Positions 48,820-58,062 of a DNA stretch of 64,000 nucleotides are shown here, one piece after another. The notes beneath the pieces are model-generated. The model ran no database searches and was not told the origin of the DNA. It saw only the letters and a list, made by a program, of their open reading frames with translations. Where the stretch lies: positions 1-64,000 of the forward strand of contig NZ_GG665867.1 of assembly GCF_000160115.1 (NCBI RefSeq), in the 5' to 3' direction. The translations under genes and the position numbers were made by a program. This DNA comes from Shuttleworthella satelles DSM 14600. Lineage in GTDB: Bacteria; Bacillota; Clostridia; Lachnospirales; Lachnospiraceae. The first letter of the stretch is position 1. Each line of letters starts with the position of its first letter.

Positions 48820-48934
48820 TCCAACTGATCCTTCATGACCAAATCGTGCCCAAAATCTTCTTTCCTTCCACCCCTTCCATTTCTTTCCGTTTCTTCCAAA
48901 ATGATTTGCTCCACCTGTCGGGTCTTCGATTCTG

Positions 48935-48971: not shown

Positions 48972-49646
48972 ATGCGCCTGCTCTTAGCCGAGGATGAACT
49001 CGACCTGTCCCGCGCCCTTGTCCGCATTCTCAAGGCCAACCACTACGAGGTGGATGCTGTCTATGACGGCCGGGACGCCTTGGACTACCTGGAAACCGGC
49101 GTCTACGACGGGGCCATCCTGGATGTCATGATGCCCAAAATGGACGGGTTTACGGTGCTGCGAAAGATCCGTTCCGCCCAGAATGATATCCCTGTTCTCA
49201 TGCTGACTGCCCGCTCCGAAATCGATGACCGGGTACAGGGACTGGACTCGGGGGCCGACGACTACCTGACCAAGCCCTTTTCCACGAGAGAACTCATCGC
49301 CAGAGTTCGCTCGATCACCCGCCGCAGAACCGTCGCGACCGATGCCAGCATGCATCTTGGAAGGCTGACCCTGGATCAGCTGACCTGCACGGCAAACGCT
49401 CCCGGAGGCAGCCTGCACCTGGCCAACAAGGAGTATCAGATCCTGGAGATGCTCCTGGCCAATCCGGGGCAGATCATATCTCCGGACCAGTTCATGGAGA
49501 AGATCTGGGGCTTTGAGAGCGATGTCGAACAGAATGTGGTCTGGGTCAATATCTCCAATCTCCGCCGCAAGTTGAAATCCATCGACGCCGGCATCGTCAT
49601 CAAGGCCTCCCGGGGTCTCGGCTACTTTGTTCAGGAGGAGGAATAA
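48972..49646 (+). CDS. OmpR/PhoB-family response regulator
   Basis: A 224-residue protein. The receiver domain (1-115) has the acidic pair EDE, the phospho-acceptor Asp51 in ILDVMMPKMDGF, Thr in LMLTARS and Lys in YLTKPFS. The winged helix (about 130-222) ends IKASRGLGYFVQEEE. I start at MRLLLAED, with AAGGAG five bases upstream; the frame upstream is open but not protein-like. It lies three bases before its partner kinase gene. Confidence 0.94.
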   Translation: MRLLLAEDELDLSRALVRILKANHYEVDAVYDGRDALDYLETGVYDGAILDVMMPKMDGFTVLRKIRSAQNDIPVLMLTARSEIDDRVQGLDSGADDYLTKPFSTRELIARVRSITRRRTVATDASMHLGRLTLDQLTCTANAPGGSLHLANKEYQILEMLLANPGQIISPDQFMEKIWGFESDVEQNVVWVNISNLRRKLKSIDAGIVIKASRGLGYFVQEEE

Positions 49647-49649
49647 ACC

Positions 49650-50933
49650 ATGTTCCGACAATTGCGCCGCAAATTCATCGGTCTGTCCATGCTCTCCGTC
49701 CTGATCGTTCTGACCCTGATTATGGGAGCCGTCAACCTGATCAATTACCGGTCCATGACAAAGTCGGCAGATCAGAAGCTGGCCCTTTTAGCCGGACAGG
49801 GCGGGCGCTTTGGCAGCAAGCCCCCGGAGGATAAGCCCCCCGGTGATTTCGACGCCGAGACTCCCTTCAGCAGCCGCTACTTCAGCGTCAGTCTCTCCGC
49901 GGATAATCAGGTCACGGCCTCTGACACAGACCACATCGCCGCGATCAATGCCGAGCAGGCCGCTTCCTATGCTCAGAAACTGGCTCTCGGGGGGCTCCCC
50001 CGCCAGGGCTATCTGGGCCGCTACCGCTATCTTCTGCAGGAAAAGAGCGCAGACCAGGGCAAGTCCAAATCCGACAGCCAGAGCCAGGACAAAGAGGCAG
50101 GCTCTTCGGATACGACCGCCAGAACCTATTACTTTTTGGATACCCAGCCCCAGATGCAATCCTTCTACAGCTTTCTCTACGGAAGTCTGGCGGCCGGCGC
50201 AGGCGGTCTTCTTTTCGTCTTTCTCCTGCTACTGCCGGCCTCAAGGCGGGCAGTCGGCCCCATCGTTGAGAGCTACAGCAAACAGCGGCAGTTCATCACC
50301 GATGCCAACCACGAGCTCAAGACTCCTCTGGCTGTTTTGGCCGCCAACAATGAGGTGATCGAGATGGACTATGGAACTTCCGAGTGGACTGTCTCCAACC
50401 ACCGCCAGATTGACCGGCTGAATGCCCTCGTGGAGAAACTGGTCCTCCTCTCCCGCATGGAGGAGGAAGGTCCCCGCCTGACCATCGAGAAGGTCGACTT
50501 CTCCCAGATGGTCTTGGAGGCCGCTGAATCCTTTGACGCCCCTGCCCGGACCAGGGGACGCAGCCTGACCATCAGCGTCGCCCCTTCCATTTCCCTGGAA
50601 TGCGATCCCGCCTCCATGCAGCAGCTGCTCAGCCTTCTGTTGGACAATGCCCTCAAGTACTCCGACCAGGGGGGCAGCATCGAAGTAACCCTGGCCTCTA
50701 CAGCCAAGGGTAAGCTTTTGACGATTCGCAATACGGTTGATTCCATCCCCCAGGGTGATCTCTCCCGCCTCTTTGAGCGCTTCTATCGTCTGGACAGCTC
50801 CCGCAATTCGAAGACGGGCGGTTATGGAATCGGGCTGGCTGTGGCCAAGGCCATCGTCAAGACCCACAAGGGGAAAATCACGGCCACAAGTCCCGACGGC
50901 AAGTCCGTGATATTTACCGTCCTCCTCCCATGA
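49650..50933 (+). CDS. sensor histidine kinase
   Basis: A 427-residue kinase with a membrane helix at about 10-32, an outer domain to about 175 holding a Lys/Ser/Asp/Gln-rich low-complexity part (GKSKSDSQSQDKEAGSS), a second helix near 178-196, the phospho-acceptor His221 in DANHELKTPLAV and a HATPase domain (LLDNALKYSDQGG, GGYGIGLAVAK). No clear HAMP domain is seen. The signal is unknown. A piece containing its last codons and stop is repeated just downstream. Confidence 0.94.
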   Translation: MFRQLRRKFIGLSMLSVLIVLTLIMGAVNLINYRSMTKSADQKLALLAGQGGRFGSKPPEDKPPGDFDAETPFSSRYFSVSLSADNQVTASDTDHIAAINAEQAASYAQKLALGGLPRQGYLGRYRYLLQEKSADQGKSKSDSQSQDKEAGSSDTTARTYYFLDTQPQMQSFYSFLYGSLAAGAGGLLFVFLLLLPASRRAVGPIVESYSKQRQFITDANHELKTPLAVLAANNEVIEMDYGTSEWTVSNHRQIDRLNALVEKLVLLSRMEEEGPRLTIEKVDFSQMVLEAAESFDAPARTRGRSLTISVAPSISLECDPASMQQLLSLLLDNALKYSDQGGSIEVTLASTAKGKLLTIRNTVDSIPQGDLSRLFERFYRLDSSRNSKTGGYGIGLAVAKAIVKTHKGKITATSPDGKSVIFTVLLP

Positions 50934-51009: not shown

Positions 51010-51066
51010 CCTGGAAAACAGGTCGCTTGACAGTAAGTGGACCCGGGGCTAGAATCACTGTGTACA

Positions 51067-51197
51067 CAATCTTTGGGGCAGGTGAAATTCCTGACCGGCG
51101 GTGACAGTCCGCGAACCCCTTTGGGGCCGACCCGGTGGAATTCCGGAACCGACGGTAGCAGGCAGATGTCTGGACAGTCCGGATGGGAGAAGATGGA
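51067..51197 (+). ncRNA. FMN riboswitch (RFN element)
   Basis: The conserved blocks are all present and in order: CTTTGGGGCAGGTGAAATTC, CCTGACCGGCGGTGACAGTC, GCGAACCCCTTTGGGG, GACCCGGTGGAATTCCGGAA, CCGACGGTAGCAGGCAG and CAGTCCGGATGGGAGAAGA. It binds FMN and lies upstream of ribU, followed by an intrinsic terminator, so FMN should stop expression of the riboflavin importer. Confidence 0.96.
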
Positions 51198-51217
51198 TAC
51201 GCTCACAGGTCGCAGTC

Positions 51218-51258
51218 AGGACTTTCATGAGATGAACCATCTCGTGGAAGTCCTTTTT
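51218..51258 (+). terminator. riboswitch-controlled terminator
   Basis: AGGACTTTCATGAGATG pairs with CATCTCGTGGAAGTCCT around AACC, followed by TTTTT. It lies between the FMN aptamer and ribU and is the expected expression platform. Confidence 0.85.
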
Positions 51259-51366
51259 CATTCTCGGCAATGGCAAGGCCTCCATCTAGTCAAAGGTGTA
51301 CCGAAACTTTGGATTTCCCGCGGAAAAACAGCAGACCTGCGGGAGGCAGCAGAATTGGAGGTAATT

Positions 51367-52008
51367 ATGGACACACTTGTCAGAGATAACCCCACTAGGG
51401 GAGAAGAAACCCAAAAAGCAAGCGGCTTCAGCACAAGGAGACTGGTGATCATCGCCATGTTCTCCGCCTTATCCGCCATTCTCATGCTCTTTGAGCTGTC
51501 GCTCCCCATTGCCCCTTCCTTCCTGAAGTTCGACATTTCCGACCTGCCCGCGATCCTGAGCACCTTCATGATGGGGCCTGTCGCCGGTATTATCATAGAG
51601 GCCCTCAAGAATATCTTAAAGCTCCTCTTCCGTGGAACCTCTACCGCCTTTGTGGGTGAGCTGGCCAACTTTGCCGGCGCCGCTGTTTTCGTTTTGACCG
51701 CCTCTTTGGTCTACCGCTTCAAAAAAGGGAAGATGGGGGCAGTCCTCTCGCTCTGCGTGGGAACCGTTCTGACAACCATCGCTTTCGTCTTCATTGATTA
51801 CTTCGTGATTTTTCCCATGTATGTAACCCTCTACGGCATGCCCATGGATTCCATCATCAAGATGGGGACCATGGTCAACGGCCGCATCAGCGATCTCTTT
51901 ACCATGATGGTCTACGCCGTTGCCCCCTTTAATCTGATCAAGTACGGTCTGGTCTCCCTGATCACTTTCTTCACCTACAAGCGGCTGAAGCAGATTCTCT
52001 TCCGATAA
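51367..52008 (+). CDS. ribU: ECF transporter riboflavin-binding S component
   Basis: The 213-residue membrane protein has about six helices and the ECF S-component features: TRRLVIIAMFSALSAILMLF near the N-terminus, DISDLPAILSTFMMGPVAGI and IIEALKNILKLLF, matching RibU. Riboflavin as substrate is supported by the FMN riboswitch. It needs the shared EcfA-EcfA'-EcfT module, which is not in this window. I start at 51367 because GGAGGT lies four bases before the ATG; the longer frame would run through the riboswitch. Confidence 0.94.
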   Translation: MDTLVRDNPTRGEETQKASGFSTRRLVIIAMFSALSAILMLFELSLPIAPSFLKFDISDLPAILSTFMMGPVAGIIIEALKNILKLLFRGTSTAFVGELANFAGAAVFVLTASLVYRFKKGKMGAVLSLCVGTVLTTIAFVFIDYFVIFPMYVTLYGMPMDSIIKMGTMVNGRISDLFTMMVYAVAPFNLIKYGLVSLITFFTYKRLKQILFR

Positions 52009-52028: not shown

Positions 52029-52190
52029 AATTCACTTCTTTTTCGGATATTCGCTTCTTCTGCGGATATCCACTTCTTCCCTGTAAGATCGCTTTCCCAT
52101 GGAGAGGCTCTTTATCCCTGAAGGATTGCTTCTTCTCCGGATATCCACCTCCTCCCCGAAAGATCGCTTTCCCTCGAAGGCCTCTTCTTA
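52029..52190. repeat. diverged short repeats after ribU
   Basis: Units of about 19-20 bases, of the type TTCGCTTCTTCTGCGGATA and TCCACTTCTTCCCTGTAAGA, follow one another from soon after the ribU stop. A block of three (near 52062-52100) recurs in diverged form near 52137-52175. Confidence 0.55.
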
Positions 52191-52211
52191 CAATTACATA
52201 TGCTTATTATA

Positions 52212-52549: not shown

Positions 52550-53377
52550 ATGGCAGATCAGATGATTTTCAAGCGCTATGAGCTCAAGTATCTCCTGTCT
52601 CCGGAGATGGATCGGGCCATCCGCATAGCCATGATGGAACACATGGTGCCGGATATCTACGGGAGGAATACCAACCTCTCCCTCTACCTGGATACACCTG
52701 ATTTCCTTCTGGTCCGCCGATCCATTGAGTCTCCTGTTTATAAGGAAAAGCTTCGGATCCGCAGCTACGGAACCGTCGGCCCGGAGGACAAGGTCTTTGT
52801 AGAGCTTAAGAAGAAGTACCGAAAGGTAGTCTATAAGCGAAGGGTCGCCCTGACCGAGGATGAGACAAATGCCTGGATCAAAGGGTCTTGTCTTCCCGCG
52901 GACAGTCAGATCGTGCGGGAGATCAACTACAGCCGCAGACTTTACCCCCAACTGGCCCCCCGCATGCTCCTCTCCTATGACCGGCAGGCTTTCTACGCGA
53001 AAGAGAATCAGGACTTTCGGCTGACCTTTGACCGGAATATTCTCTGGCGGATGGAAGACCTCAACTTACACAGTCCCGTTCGGGGGCGGCCCCTTCTGAA
53101 GGACGGACAGGTGCTGATGGAGATTAAGACAGGGGCAGCCATTCCCCTCTGGCTGGTAGAAGTCTTAAGCCGCGAGAAGATCTACAGGAGCTCCTTTTCC
53201 AAGTACGGCAGAGCTTATGAAGAGCTGATGCGAAAAAACAAACCAGGGAGGCAGGCATATTGGATGCCCTCCATCCCCGGCGGACACGGAATTCTGTCCG
53301 AACAGGAATTGCGAAATTCCCTTCCCGCCCCAACGGAACACGAAGAGAGGAGGCATGACAATGACATCGCTGTTTAG
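52550..53377 (+). CDS. VTC domain protein, probable polyphosphate polymerase
   Basis: The 275 residues are a single VTC domain, related to the catalytic domain of yeast Vtc4, which makes polyphosphate from ATP inside a basic tunnel. The expected residues are present: Lys13 (KRYELKYLL), Arg69 and Arg71 (KLRIRSYG), Lys87-89 (VELKKKYRK), Lys96, Arg138 and Arg145 (APRMLLSYDRQ), Glu191 and Lys193 (LMEIKTG) and Lys218 (FSKYGRAYE). So it should be active. GGAGG precedes the ATG. It is the first of a three-gene set with a DUF4956 membrane protein and a DUF4353 lipoprotein; the reading frames overlap, so they are made together. Activity is inferred from the family. Confidence 0.9.
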   Translation: MADQMIFKRYELKYLLSPEMDRAIRIAMMEHMVPDIYGRNTNLSLYLDTPDFLLVRRSIESPVYKEKLRIRSYGTVGPEDKVFVELKKKYRKVVYKRRVALTEDETNAWIKGSCLPADSQIVREINYSRRLYPQLAPRMLLSYDRQAFYAKENQDFRLTFDRNILWRMEDLNLHSPVRGRPLLKDGQVLMEIKTGAAIPLWLVEVLSREKIYRSSFSKYGRAYEELMRKNKPGRQAYWMPSIPGGHGILSEQELRNSLPAPTEHEERRHDNDIAV

Positions 53378-54050
53378 CGGAATTTTCGACACATCAACAA
53401 GCACGGTAATCGCCCCGGGATATTTTCTGCTCTGCCTGGGGGTATCCTTTCTGATCGGTCTCTGGCTGGCCGGCATCTACGCCTACCGAAGCCGGCACAC
53501 CCAGTCCTTTATGCTGACTCTGGCCCTCCTTCCCGCCATCGTCTGCGTGGTGATCATGATGGTCAACGGCAATATCGGCGCCGCGGTCGGCGTAGCAGGA
53601 GCCTTCTCTTTAGTTCGCTTCCGCTCCGTCGCCGGAAGCGCCAAGGACATCGCCATGATCTTTTTAGCCATGGCGGCTGGCCTGATCGTCGGCATGGGAT
53701 ATCTGGCCTACGCGATTCTCTTCGCTCTGCTTGTAGGAGCTGCCCTCTTTGCCCTGGTACAGACTGATTTCGGGAGCACTCGCAGATCTCTCTACAGGAA
53801 TCTGCGCGTGACTATCCCGGAGGATCTGGACTATACGGACCTCCTCGGGGATATTTTCAAAAACTATTGCAGAACCTCCCATCTGGTCTCTGTCAAGACG
53901 AGCAACATGGGAAGTCTCTTCAAACTGACCTACGATATCGAGCTCAAGGATCCCGCGAGGGAAAAAGAGATGCTGGATGCGATCCGCGTCCGAAACGGTA
54001 ACCTGGAAATCACAGTTTCACAGCAGGAGGTGACAAATGAGCAACTTTAA
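53361..54050 (+). CDS. DUF4956 membrane protein
   Basis: A 229-residue protein with about four membrane helices in the first 135 residues (PGYFLLCLGVSFLIGLWLAG; TLALLPAIVCVVIMMV; IGAAVGVAGAFSLVRFRSVA; MAAGLIVGMGYLAYAILFAL) and a soluble C-terminal domain (VTIPEDLDYTDLLGDIFKNY onward). FSLVRFRSVAGSAKDIA is the hallmark of DUF4956. These proteins regularly sit beside VTC-domain genes. The function is unknown; a channel or exporter for the polymer is one idea. The start at 53361 has better spacing from GGAGG than the ATG at 53355. It overlaps both neighbours. Confidence 0.9.
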   Translation: MTSLFSGIFDTSTSTVIAPGYFLLCLGVSFLIGLWLAGIYAYRSRHTQSFMLTLALLPAIVCVVIMMVNGNIGAAVGVAGAFSLVRFRSVAGSAKDIAMIFLAMAAGLIVGMGYLAYAILFALLVGAALFALVQTDFGSTRRSLYRNLRVTIPEDLDYTDLLGDIFKNYCRTSHLVSVKTSNMGSLFKLTYDIELKDPAREKEMLDAIRVRNGNLEITVSQQEVTNEQL

Positions 54051-55647
54051 GAGATATAACATCAAGCGTTTTGGCGCAATCGCCATGGCCGGAGGTCTGA
54101 CCCTGGGACTGGCGGCCTGTGGAGCAAAGACCGCTTCAAAGACTGCTTCCAGCACCACAACGAGCAATACCGCGTCCGCGACTTCTGCCGCCGCTTCTTC
54201 CTCAGATTACTTCACAGACCGGGACCTGTCCGGTGACTATGACGACGCGAGCGCCACCCATATCACCCTGTCTGACAGCGCTTCTACGGTCGATGGCCAG
54301 GGAGCGAGTGTCGACGGATCCACAGTTACCATTACATCGGAAGGCACCTATGTCTTCTCCGGCAGCCTCTCCAACGGGCAGATCAAGGTAGAGGCGGATG
54401 ATACCGCCAAGGTTCAGATCGTTTTGAAGGGCGTGAGCATCAGCAATTCCGGCTCGGCAGCCATTTACGTCAAGACGGCGGACAAAGTTTTCGTCACAAC
54501 GGCGGAGGGCAGCGACAACCGTCTGACCAGCAGCGGAAGCTTCGCCGCGGACGGCAACATCAAGGTGGACGGAGCCATTTTCTCTAAGCAGGATCTGGTG
54601 ATCAACGGCAAGGGCTCCCTGTCCGTCAAGTCCTCCGCAAACGGGATCGTCAGCAAGGATGACCTCAAGCTGACCGGGTCTACCGTGACGATCGACGCCC
54701 AGGGCAAGGGACTGGAGGCCAATGATTCCATCCGAATCGCCGACGGAACCTATACGATCAACGCGACAGATGACGCTATACACGCAGATTCCTCTGACAC
54801 AGAGGCCGGCTTCTTCTACATGTCGGGTGGCACACTGGCCCTGTCCAGCGGCGATGACGGTATCCACGCCGACGGCAAGCTCAACATCGTCGGCGGCAAG
54901 ATTGTCGTCAGCCAGTCCAACGAGGGCCTGGAAGGATCCCAGATTGTGATCGACGGCGGCGACATCAATGTCACATCCAAGGACGACGGCCTCAATGCCG
55001 CCGGGGATTCCAATACGAGCAGCGACTACTCCGTCACCATCAACGGAGGTAAGCTCGAGGTCAACGCCTCCGGCGACGGCATTGATTCCAACGGTGATAT
55101 CTATATCAACGGTGGCGAGACCTACGTCTCCGGCGCGACCAATAACGGCGACTCCACCTTAGACTACGGAGATCGATCCAAGGGAGTCATCAGCGGCGGA
55201 ACGCTGATCGCCACCGGCTACTCCGGTATGGCGGAAGCCTTTGACTCCTCCTCCACCCAGGGCATGATCCTCTATGGGCTGAGCAACACTTCCTCAGAAA
55301 CTGTGACCGTGACAGATTCCTCCGGAAATGTCCTGGCTTCTTACACTCCGCCCAAGAACTACAACGCGGTCTATGTCTCCGCGCCCGGAATGACGACCGG
55401 AAACAGCTACACCATCGCAACCGGATCCTCCAGGCAGACCATCAGTCTTGACTCCATCGTCACGACCTCCGGGAACGTAAACAGCCGCGGCATGGGCGGC
55501 CCCGGAGGCATGGGCGGCTCTGGCAATTCGGGTGGCCCCGGAGGTTCGGGCGGCCCCGGAGGTTCGGGCGGATCCGGCAGCGCAGGCGGCCCCGGTGGTA
55601 TGGGTGGATCGGGCAGCTCCGGCAAGTCCGGCCGCTCGGGCAAATGA
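54037..55647 (+). CDS. DUF4353 carbohydrate-binding-domain lipoprotein with glycine-rich tail
   Basis: A 536-residue lipoprotein with lipobox LAAC (Cys28). A Thr/Ser/Ala linker leads to a repetitive beta-rich region (about 75-400) that reads like a parallel beta helix: GNIKVDGAIFSKQDLVING, NGIVSKDDLKLTGS, KGLEANDSIRIADGTYTI, DDGIHADGKLNIVGGK, EGLEGSQIVIDGGDI, DGLNAAG and DGIDSNGDIYINGGE. This is the DUF4353 pattern. The C-terminus (from about 485) is Gly/Ser/Pro-rich. It is the third gene of the VTC set, overlapping DUF4956 by 14 bases. The same repeat-like reading frame continues for 12 codons beyond the stop codon. Its role may be to hold or organise a polymer at the cell surface (inference). 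Confidence 0.88.
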   Translation: MSNFKRYNIKRFGAIAMAGGLTLGLAACGAKTASKTASSTTTSNTASATSAAASSSDYFTDRDLSGDYDDASATHITLSDSASTVDGQGASVDGSTVTITSEGTYVFSGSLSNGQIKVEADDTAKVQIVLKGVSISNSGSAAIYVKTADKVFVTTAEGSDNRLTSSGSFAADGNIKVDGAIFSKQDLVINGKGSLSVKSSANGIVSKDDLKLTGSTVTIDAQGKGLEANDSIRIADGTYTINATDDAIHADSSDTEAGFFYMSGGTLALSSGDDGIHADGKLNIVGGKIVVSQSNEGLEGSQIVIDGGDINVTSKDDGLNAAGDSNTSSDYSVTINGGKLEVNASGDGIDSNGDIYINGGETYVSGATNNGDSTLDYGDRSKGVISGGTLIATGYSGMAEAFDSSSTQGMILYGLSNTSSETVTVTDSSGNVLASYTPPKNYNAVYVSAPGMTTGNSYTIATGSSRQTISLDSIVTTSGNVNSRGMGGPGGMGGSGNSGGPGGSGGPGGSGGSGSAGGPGGMGGSGSSGKSGRSGK

Positions 55648-55683
55648 GGTACTTCCGGAAAATCCGCCGATTCAGGCAAGAAC
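55488..55683 (+). repeat. Gly-rich codon repeats running past the lipoprotein stop
   Basis: Near-identical short units (GGCCCCGGAGGTTCGGGC type) encode the tail of the DUF4353 protein. After the TGA at 55645-55647 the same frame continues GTSGKSADSGKN to a second TGA at about 55686, so an earlier version of the gene was probably longer. Confidence 0.65.
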
Positions 55684-55768
55684 TGACAGCTAATCAAAAT
55701 TCCGCGGGTCTCCTCTGAGACGTCAGCAGAAATCCGCGTTTATCATAAAAGCATATTACGCACCACAG

Positions 55769-55801
55769 AAGAGAGGGACGACGACTGCCGTCCCCCTCTT
55801 A
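55769..55801. terminator. bidirectional terminator between convergent operons
   Basis: AAGAGAGGGACG pairs with CGTCCCCCTCTT around ACGACTGC. It lies between the end of the VTC set (plus) and the second two-component operon (minus). Confidence 0.65.
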
Positions 55802-55806
55802 TTCAT

Positions 55807-55970
55807 GCTTTGAAATCACCATGACAAATGCTCCGTGGATCACCCTGGCGTACTGTGATCGCACTCTACGACCAGTGCTTCGGAATCACTACGACAAATG
55901 CTCCGTGGATCACCCTGGCGTACTGTGGCCGCACTCTACGACCAGTGCTTCGGAATCACTATGACAAATG
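55807..55970 (-). repeat. 70-base tandem repeats of the kinase 3' end
   Basis: The marker TGACAAATGC or CGACAAATGC recurs at 55822, 55892 and 55962, a 70-base period. The right-hand copy is the coding 3' end of the kinase gene (last residues AFVIVIPKHWS and stop); the other copies repeat it downstream with one or two changes each, joined by GTGCGGCCACAGTACGCC-type sequence. Confidence 0.9.
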
Positions 55971-57195
55971 CCTTCGTATATCCCGGGTAGTTCTCGTCTA
56001 AAATCAGTCGGTAACCATGCATCTGGCTGATCTTGGCCGCAATTGAGAGCCCCAGGCCCGATCCTCCCCGGCTGGAGCGCGAGCTGTCTCCCATGGCGAA
56101 GGGCTCGAACATATGCTCCGCCAGCTCCCGGGGGATGGGCTGCCCGTCATCAGCGATGATCACCAGAATCCCCTCTCCCAGTCCGTATCGGATCCGGTCC
56201 TCTTGCGTCTGGCCGCGGCGCATCTGATCATAGGAGAGGGCTCTATCCGTGTGCCTGATGGCCTGCGTGCGAACCAGAATCCTCGTCCCCCTCGGGTTGT
56301 GGCGACTGGCATTGTTGATCAGATTGCTGATCACACGTGAGAATTGAACCCGATCCGCCAGGATCTGCCAGCGCTCCTCGCTGATCTGCGCGTCCAGCTC
56401 CATCCCTCTGTCCTCTACCTCTTCAAAAAGCAGAGCGGTATTCTCCCGGACCAGCTCATTGATATCCAGGGTTCTCTTCTGCAAATGAAATCCCGTAGAG
56501 TTGATCTTCGCGTAGTCAAAGAGGATATTGATCAGATCGTTTACCCGCCTGGACTTGGCCTCAATGGCCTTAAGATATCGCCTGGCCAGAGCGGGATCCG
56601 TGACCATGCCGTCTTCCAGTGCCCTGGCATAACCCAAAACCGTCGTGATCGGATTGCGCAGGTCATGGGCGATATCTGAGAGGATCAGATTCCTGTCCGC
56701 GTCGAATTTCTCATGCTCTTTTCTCTGCTCTTCCTGCAGAAGACGCATCTGCCCAATCACGAAACGGGCATAGAGGACCCCTGTGATCACATAGGGCAGA
56801 GCATAGAGAAAGATCATGATCGCCAGCACGAGCAGAAGGAGAAAGACGCCTCCCCCCGTCAGATGCGGCAGAACCATTCCCTTCGATCCCGTAAAGACAT
56901 GGCTGACGATCACCGCCAGTATCTGATCCTCCAATTCTGTCAGACTGCCCTGAAAGATCAGACCAAGCAGGCGAACCAAAAGCAGAAAGATCATCCCTAA
57001 AAAGAGATAAATGCTCTGCCCGACCGTCATGCTTTGAATTCCCGCCTGCTCCATCAGCGGCAGAATCAGACCCGGCACAAAGAGCCGGTTCACCAGCTGA
57101 ACAACGAGCAGCTCCAGGCCCGCCGCCACCAGCATGACCACGATAAAACCCGCGATCAGGCGAATGGTCATATTGGTCTGCTGCTCGGATGTCAT
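55936..57195 (-). CDS. sensor histidine kinase (second system)
   Basis: A 419-residue kinase. The N-terminal half has three or four membrane helices (about 11-34, 60-82, 115-143) with short outer loops, so it probably senses at the membrane. The phospho-acceptor is His177 in DIAHDLRNPITTVLGYA, then N-box LINNASRHNPRG and the G-boxes IADDGQPIP and GGSGLGLSIAAKISQMHG. The layout recalls VanS/CroS-like envelope kinases. Its ATG overlaps the response regulator stop by 4 bases. The gene's last 11 codons are part of a 70-base tandem repeat. Confidence 0.93.
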   Translation of the reverse strand: MTSEQQTNMTIRLIAGFIVVMLVAAGLELLVVQLVNRLFVPGLILPLMEQAGIQSMTVGQSIYLFLGMIFLLLVRLLGLIFQGSLTELEDQILAVIVSHVFTGSKGMVLPHLTGGGVFLLLLVLAIMIFLYALPYVITGVLYARFVIGQMRLLQEEQRKEHEKFDADRNLILSDIAHDLRNPITTVLGYARALEDGMVTDPALARRYLKAIEAKSRRVNDLINILFDYAKINSTGFHLQKRTLDINELVRENTALLFEEVEDRGMELDAQISEERWQILADRVQFSRVISNLINNASRHNPRGTRILVRTQAIRHTDRALSYDQMRRGQTQEDRIRYGLGEGILVIIADDGQPIPRELAEHMFEPFAMGDSSRSSRGGSGLGLSIAAKISQMHGYRLILDENYPGYTKAFVIVIPKHWS

Positions 57196-57905
57196 CTCTT
57201 TTTCTCCATGCGATATCCCAGTCCACGGATCGTCCGGATATAGTGGTTGTTGTCCCCATCATCCAGCTTGGAGCGAAGCTTACTGATGCAGACCATGATA
57301 TTATTGTCCGCAACGATATACTCCTCCTCCCAGCCTCTCTCATAGATCTGCTGCTTGGTAAAGACCTTGCCGGGGTGAGACATGAAGAGATCCATAATCC
57401 GATACTCTACCGAGGTCAGGTCGATCTCCTCTTCTCCGCGGTAGAGGGTACAGGCCTCCCGATCCAGGCGAAGGTCCTGCACGCGCAGCTCTTTTTTGCC
57501 CCTGTCCTCTCCGCTTCCGAGGGCAATATCCGCTCCCAGGGCATAGAAGCGCCGGATCGAGGCATTGATCCTGGCCACCGCCTCCAGGGGGTTAAAGGGC
57601 TTGGACAGATAATCATCCGCCCCCAGATTGAGGCCCAGAATCTTATCAGAATCCCCGTCCTTGGCAGAGAGCATGAGAACTGGCATGTTGCTCTTCTTCC
57701 GAATCTCCTTGAGCAGACAAAAGCCATCCATCTTGGGCATCATGACGTCGAGCACGCAGAGATCCACATGCTCTTTCTTAAGCAGATCCAGGGCCTCCAG
57801 GCCGTCATTGGCCTCTAAAACCCGATAGGACTCATGATCCAGGTACAGACGGAGGAGTTCACGGATTTCGGCCTCATCGTCTGCCAGCAGGATTGTATAT
57901 TCCAT
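57192..57905 (-). CDS. OmpR/PhoB-family response regulator (second system)
   Basis: A 237-residue regulator. The receiver has ADDEAEI, phospho-acceptor Asp53 (VLDVMMPKMDGF), LMLSAKD and YLSKPFNPLE; the winged helix ends IRTIRGLGYRMEKK. The kinase follows with overlap. I start at MEYTILLADD (57905), with AAGGG eight bases upstream; the extra 44 codons in the frame are not protein-like. It is convergent with the VTC set, and its targets are not known. Confidence 0.93.
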   Translation of the reverse strand: MEYTILLADDEAEIRELLRLYLDHESYRVLEANDGLEALDLLKKEHVDLCVLDVMMPKMDGFCLLKEIRKKSNMPVLMLSAKDGDSDKILGLNLGADDYLSKPFNPLEAVARINASIRRFYALGADIALGSGEDRGKKELRVQDLRLDREACTLYRGEEEIDLTSVEYRIMDLFMSHPGKVFTKQQIYERGWEEEYIVADNNIMVCISKLRSKLDDGDNNHYIRTIRGLGYRMEKKR

Positions 57906-58062
57906 CTTCCGCGCCCTTATCCTTTCACTCAATTCCCTGTATTCACCGCATCTATTATAACAAAGAGGGTCGACCTCATGTATCGCATGCGCGCATTCCG
58001 CAGCGCCGCGACAGATACCGGTCGACCCTGTCTTCACATTTCACGTTTCATCGAATTGCTTC

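Follow-up and report, generated by a model that had tools for sequence, protein, structure and literature searches.

The 64,000 nucleotides of Shuttleworthella satelles DSM 14600 DNA analyzed here (the window; contig NZ_GG665867.1) contain three consecutive forward-strand genes encoding a VTC-domain protein (positions 52550-53377; 275 aa; PF09359, E=4.9e-39), a DUF4956 membrane protein (53355-54050; 231 aa; PF16316, E=7.6e-16), and a beta-helix lipoprotein of the Cthe_2159 family (54037-55647; 536 aa; PF14262, E=3.5e-78). The VTC and DUF4956 genes overlap by 23 bases and the DUF4956 and lipoprotein genes by 14 bases, and a good Shine-Dalgarno sequence is located ahead of each of the three starts. 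The open reading frames, overlaps, and Shine-Dalgarno sequences agree with the original prediction of three overlapping genes at this place, and the overlaps, together with a Shine-Dalgarno sequence for each start, point to a single translationally coupled operon. A candidate hairpin-plus-T site, identified by a consensus match only, lies 3' of the operon (55775-55794). Imperfect repeats (ggatatccac..cttcttcc, gatcgctttccc) occur upstream of the operon at 52030-52200, and an imperfect tandem repeat of ~77 bases (55810-55960) occupies the intergenic region between the lipoprotein gene and the gene for a convergent histidine kinase.

Two two-component systems flank the operon. The upstream system is composed of an OmpR-family response regulator (48972-49646) and its paired sensor histidine kinase (49650-50933), both encoded on the forward strand. 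The listed start of the regulator gene is a GTG codon at 48846; the likely start is the ATG at 48972, which follows AAAGGAG. The second system (55936-58037) is convergent with the operon. Between the upstream system and the operon, an FMN riboswitch (51065-51198; RF00050, 85 bits) is followed on its 3' side by a 17-pair hairpin and a T run (51218-51254), the two elements (51065-51254) likely forming a terminator-type switch. The gene after the riboswitch encodes a RibU-like ECF transporter, the true start of which is probably near 51368 rather than at the listed GTG (51037). The riboflavin transporter and the FMN riboswitch (51065-52008) were considered as part of the operon and rejected as a separate unit.

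The VTC-domain protein and its pairing with DUF4956

The VTC-domain protein matched PF09359 with a score of 134.7 bits (gathering cut-off, 23) over positions 1 to 233 of 235, and Pfam detected neither an SPX domain nor a DUF202 domain, PF09359 being the only family found. Its nearest named relatives are mostly from the Lachnospiraceae. A profile built from 57 VTC proteins retrieved yeast Vtc4 (3g3q) with an E value of 4e-23. The AlphaFold model (pLDDT 88) had yeast Vtc4 (3g3r and 3g3q) as its best matches among solved structures, with a TM score of 0.63, and other triphosphate-tunnel enzymes ranked below. Residues K13, R69, R71, K87, K96, R145, and R157 correspond to K200, R264, R266, K281, K294, R361, and R373 of yeast Vtc4 (native numbering), and a weaker second HMMER stretch, sharing the LEVK and FSK motifs, pairs E191 with E426 and K218 with K458. 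The nine tunnel residues are invariant across the 57 sequences, save K218, which is conserved in at least 90% of them. This alignment to yeast Vtc4, combined with conservation in 57 sequences, confirms the earlier claim that the basic tunnel residues are intact. All the yeast Vtc4 catalytic residues that were checked are present, including R264, R266, and the metal-binding glutamate E426, the modification of which impairs catalysis by yeast VTC (PMC9911596). The protein is a soluble triphosphate-tunnel enzyme and probably a polyphosphate polymerase, a role that its fold and residues make plausible. Triphosphate-tunnel enzymes also include phosphatases and cyclases, and a limited literature search retrieved no report of polymerase activity shown for a VTC-domain protein from bacteria.

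No homolog of PPK1, PPK2, or Ppx/GppA was found in the whole genome (97% complete). The VTC protein is therefore the sole candidate polyphosphate synthase of known type found in this genome, in which any polymerase activity of VTC could be followed without interference from these enzymes. The idea that VTC simply replaces PPK1 was rejected, since the two enzymes were not anti-correlated across genomes, PPK1 being present in 27 of 73 genomes with VTC versus 18 of 75 without (p=0.11).

The distribution of the VTC and DUF4956 genes was surveyed in 148 draft genomes of the class, with counts that are raw with respect to relatedness. DUF4956 adjoins 84 of the 88 full-length VTC genes, and the set is widespread among Clostridia of the gut. 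Seventy-two genomes carry both families, one VTC only, one DUF4956 only, and 74 neither, so that presence of the two families is matched in 146 genomes. Among 14 unrelated control genomes, both families were found in the same three (Bacteroides, Corynebacterium glutamicum, and Methanosarcina acetivorans). At the 80 VTC loci closest to that of S. satelles, DUF4956 is present in 78 and Cthe_2159 in 69, and none contains CotH as judged with three CotH profiles. Co-occurrence of the three families, chosen beforehand as the observation that could refute the original prediction, was thus strong, the pair being separated in only two genomes. At one locus (L079; G112:C13), Cthe_2159 and DUF4956 genes lie side by side with no adjoining VTC gene, possibly as a decayed or alternative copy.

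Relationship of DUF4956 to MgtC

The DUF4956 protein matched PF16316 with a score of 58.7 bits (gathering score, 30.6); Pfam found only this family, and a DUF202-type membrane domain was absent. In the predicted model (pLDDT 87), five transmembrane helices (residues 21 to 43, 50 to 69, 73 to 90, 96 to 113, and 117 to 136, approximately) precede a C-terminal domain (145 to 228) that has a ferredoxin/ACT-like beta-alpha-beta-beta-alpha-beta topology and is predicted to be cytosolic. The distribution of positive charges places the N terminus outside and the C-terminal domain inside. The protein is therefore not the four-helix membrane protein described originally, five predicted helices and a folded cytosolic domain being found instead.

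The PF02308 (MgtC) model gave no direct match to the DUF4956 protein at an E value of 0.01. Profile-profile comparison of 59 DUF4956 proteins with 11 MgtC proteins returned a probability of 97 to 98% over 202 to 204 columns, whereas the controls (2 reversed and 20 block-shuffled decoys and 4 unrelated families) all gave 0.1 to 5.2%. Compared alone, the membrane and cytosolic halves matched MgtC more weakly (81% and 65%, respectively). The C-terminal domain superimposed on the solved MgtC domain 2lqj with a Z score of 8.1 and an rmsd of 3.3 over 87 aligned residues, a fit with which many ACT/ferredoxin folds tie. Foldseek searches of the PDB and BFVD with the whole model returned nothing significant, and no solved relative of the membrane part was found. 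Because the profile match covers both the membrane and the cytosolic parts and exceeds the decoys, we conclude that DUF4956 is a remote homolog of MgtC lying outside PF02308. No earlier report of this link was found in a limited literature search.

This relationship bears on the model put forward in the original prediction, in which the VTC protein would make polyphosphate, DUF4956 would pass or sense it, and the lipoprotein would bind or display it outside. In the export form of this model, DUF4956 would act as the channel, and the lipoprotein would hold the exported polymer. Yeast VTC provides a precedent, since it couples synthesis to translocation via the transmembrane ring of the complex (PMC9911596). 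A synthesis and export machine would also be consistent with the fact that VTC and DUF4956 are almost never apart, with the lack of the cytosolic polyphosphate enzymes PPK1, PPK2, and Ppx/GppA in the genome, and with the RFR motif at the cytosolic end of the third transmembrane helix of DUF4956, in which one arginine is invariant and the second nearly so. However, DUF4956 resembles MgtC, no DUF202 channel domain was found, and basic residues are scarce in the membrane part of DUF4956 apart from the cytosolic loops. The known ligands of the lipoprotein family are, moreover, polysaccharides and not polyphosphate (PMC6712302). We regard such a machine as unlikely. Passage of polyphosphate by DUF4956 is in particular unsupported, since its remote relative MgtC is a regulator that binds the sensor kinase PhoR and raises PhoR autophosphorylation (PMC6658541). 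Translocation by DUF4956 is conceivable, but a sensing role fits better.

Exchange of the third gene and the recurrent two-component system

The lipoprotein matched PF14262 with a score of 262.9 bits (gathering score, 25.8), and its profile matched the solved structure 4peu with an E value of 2.7e-64. PF14262 is the Cthe_2159 family, formerly DUF4353. A lipobox (LAAC, residues 25 to 28, with Cys28) and a C-terminal tail containing 50% glycine over the last 60 residues agree with the glycine-rich surface lipoprotein described previously. Binding of polyphosphate by this protein is unsupported. Since cellulose and polygalacturonic acid are the ligands described for Cthe_2159 proteins (PMC6712302), the ligand is more likely, by analogy, to be a polysaccharide than polyphosphate, and calcium-dependent binding of polyanions in general is possible.

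No CotH gene was detected in the whole genome, extending to that scale the absence of CotH kinases reported for the window. The locus had been viewed for this reason as a minimal version. It is rather an alternative version in which Cthe_2159 takes the place of CotH, since the third gene at the VTC-DUF4956 loci of the 148 genomes is Cthe_2159 in 25 cases, CotH in 37, both in none, and neither in 22. This exclusivity is associated with a p value of 1.4e-8, a statistic that ignores phylogeny, and the VTC tree provides better evidence. One deep clade of the tree contains mainly CotH loci (18 of 26), with 3 Cthe_2159 loci inside, and the other mainly Cthe_2159 loci (17 of 34), with 2 CotH loci. 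At least six changes between Cthe_2159 and CotH are required on the tree, indicating that the third gene was repeatedly exchanged and not merely inherited.

Almost all the complete CotH partners possess an N-terminal hydrophobic anchor or signal. The CotH protein of one VTC locus (L084, 1958-5119) additionally contains Lamin Tail Domain, Fn3-associated, and dockerin domains and is probably extracellular and cellulosome linked. The anchors or signals of the CotH proteins, and the dockerin in one of them, indicate that the CotH and Cthe_2159 partners both act outside the membrane. CotH and Cthe_2159 have also been described as lineage-specific domains of anaerobic rumen fungi (PMC6712302). Clustering had suggested CotH-Cthe_2159 fusions at two loci (L084 and L096); these were rejected as clustering artifacts, as Pfam detected CotH and LTD domains and no PF14262. 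A constant third gene in the loci with neither family was likewise rejected, the scanned neighbors being mostly unrelated housekeeping or envelope genes, and some of these loci stop near contig ends of the draft genomes. The 22 loci devoid of a recognized third gene suggest that the VTC-DUF4956 pair can work without one.

In Streptococcus, Clostridium, and Bifidobacterium, pel loci have genes for CotH, DUF4956, and a VTC-type polymerase as neighbors (PMC7112168), several of the surveyed PelG genes adjoin VTC-CotH loci, and acidic polysaccharide is bound by Cthe_2159 proteins (PMC6712302). These observations would suit an accessory set for a Pel-like exopolysaccharide, in which the VTC protein, DUF4956, and the third protein would regulate or bind the polymer. 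Against this, clear PelG was found in 5 of the 148 genomes versus VTC in 73, and PelG is absent from the S. satelles genome, on which ground membership of the operon in a Pel system was rejected. An accessory function of this type is very improbable.

A two-component system was found within 5 kb at 45 of the 80 closest VTC loci, in several arrangements. In a set of 61 VTC loci, response regulators were present at 24 and kinases at 20, within about 6 kb. Of 103 homologs of the upstream kinase (49650-50933) outside the genome, 8 are located less than 4 kb from a VTC gene versus ~0.24 expected (P=1.9e-10), a calculation that ignores kinship, two of the eight coming from one genus. This kinase aligns over its full length, including the sensor region, with several VTC-adjacent relatives (35 to 36% identity), and its close relatives adjoin VTC-DUF4956 in other families. 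The family of its partner response regulator likewise recurs at VTC loci. The original prediction had singled out the convergent system (55936-58037), which does exist; its tie to the module does not hold, since the kinase has 3 other strong relatives in the 148 genomes and none on VTC-containing contigs. Because relatives of the upstream kinase recur near VTC genes and those of the convergent kinase do not, the upstream system (48972-50933), located outside the operon, is the probable regulator or partner. At the VTC locus of Roseburia inulinivorans (L130), the adjacent histidine kinase is split into three open reading frames, which reflects sequencing errors or a genuine disruption of the gene.

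A related kinase recurring at VTC-DUF4956 loci would also be compatible with a purely signaling function. The VTC protein would then bind or consume a phosphorylated ligand, DUF4956 would relay this to the kinase, and the level of the surface protein would follow from kinase output; polyphosphate in bulk would be beside the point. The match of DUF4956 to both parts of MgtC is in keeping with this scheme, and the stimulation of PhoR upon MgtC binding is a precedent for a link between DUF4956 and a kinase (PMC6658541). However, about half of the loci lack an adjacent two-component system, and the intact and invariant catalytic residues of the VTC protein favor an enzyme over a sensor. We therefore consider this scheme doubtful.

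Proposed function and comparison with known systems

Our preferred reading, to which we assign a probability of about 0.5, is that the operon encodes a conserved clostridial cell-envelope or surface module in which the VTC protein makes polyphosphate at the inner face, with DUF4956 as its partner and an exchangeable outer protein. The VTC protein, for which polyphosphate synthesis is likely given its conserved residues, would convert ATP to polyphosphate at the inner face of the membrane. DUF4956 would likely be its membrane partner, anchoring or controlling the enzyme, and the MgtC-like cytosolic domain would likely contact the VTC protein, the sensor kinase, or both. More tentatively, the third protein might carry out a surface or extracellular-matrix function, the beta-helix lipoprotein binding a polyanion such as an acidic polysaccharide outside the cell, and the upstream two-component system might turn the module on in response to envelope or surface cues. 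The interpretation offered in the original prediction is, as a whole, partly supported, export or surface display of polyphosphate being speculative. In a bolder and quite improbable version, VTC and DUF4956 would make polyphosphate inside and transfer it, or the phosphoryl potential that it holds, through the membrane to the exchangeable surface protein, namely, a CotH kinase using the phosphate in some species and a Cthe_2159 beta-helix binding the acidic polymer here. If this were true, bacteria would possess, beyond the membrane, a supply of phosphate energy or of polyanion that does not depend on ATP. Of the 148 surveyed genomes, 73 (about half) encode a VTC-type enzyme together with its constant membrane partner, and the combination of an exchangeable outer partner, an MgtC-like membrane partner, and a recurrent two-component family unites three uncharacterized domains in a single module that lends itself to testing.

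The presence of VTC, DUF4956, and CotH genes beside Gram-positive pel loci was already known, genes for CotH, a poly-phosphate polymerase, DUF4956, and DUF4832 having been reported as accessory genes adjoining pelDEADAFG (PMC7112168). The version containing Cthe_2159, the exchange of partners, the relation to MgtC, and the link to a two-component system appear to be new, as no earlier report was found in a limited literature search. The S. satelles operon shares with the pel accessory set a VTC-type polymerase gene beside DUF4956 and differs from it by having neither pel nor CotH, by the Cthe_2159 lipoprotein in third position, and by the two-component system upstream. Similar to the eukaryotic VTC complex (Vtc1/Vtc3/Vtc4), the enzyme has the catalytic triphosphate-tunnel fold and residues and is paired with a membrane protein, but the SPX domain and the DUF202 membrane part are missing, the partner is MgtC-like, and a surface protein is added. 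Like members of the MgtC/SapB family (PF02308), DUF4956 is predicted to have five transmembrane helices and a cytosolic ACT-like domain, with a profile match along nearly its whole length, although it is missed by the PF02308 model, displays GAxSLVRFRS where MgtC has GFLGAG...GLTTAA, and is encoded in an operon with VTC. Finally, the lipoprotein belongs with high profile score to the same beta-helix family as Cthe_2159 (4peu) of Clostridium thermocellum, from which it differs by its greater length, further helix repeats, a glycine-rich tail, and its location in a VTC-DUF4956 operon.
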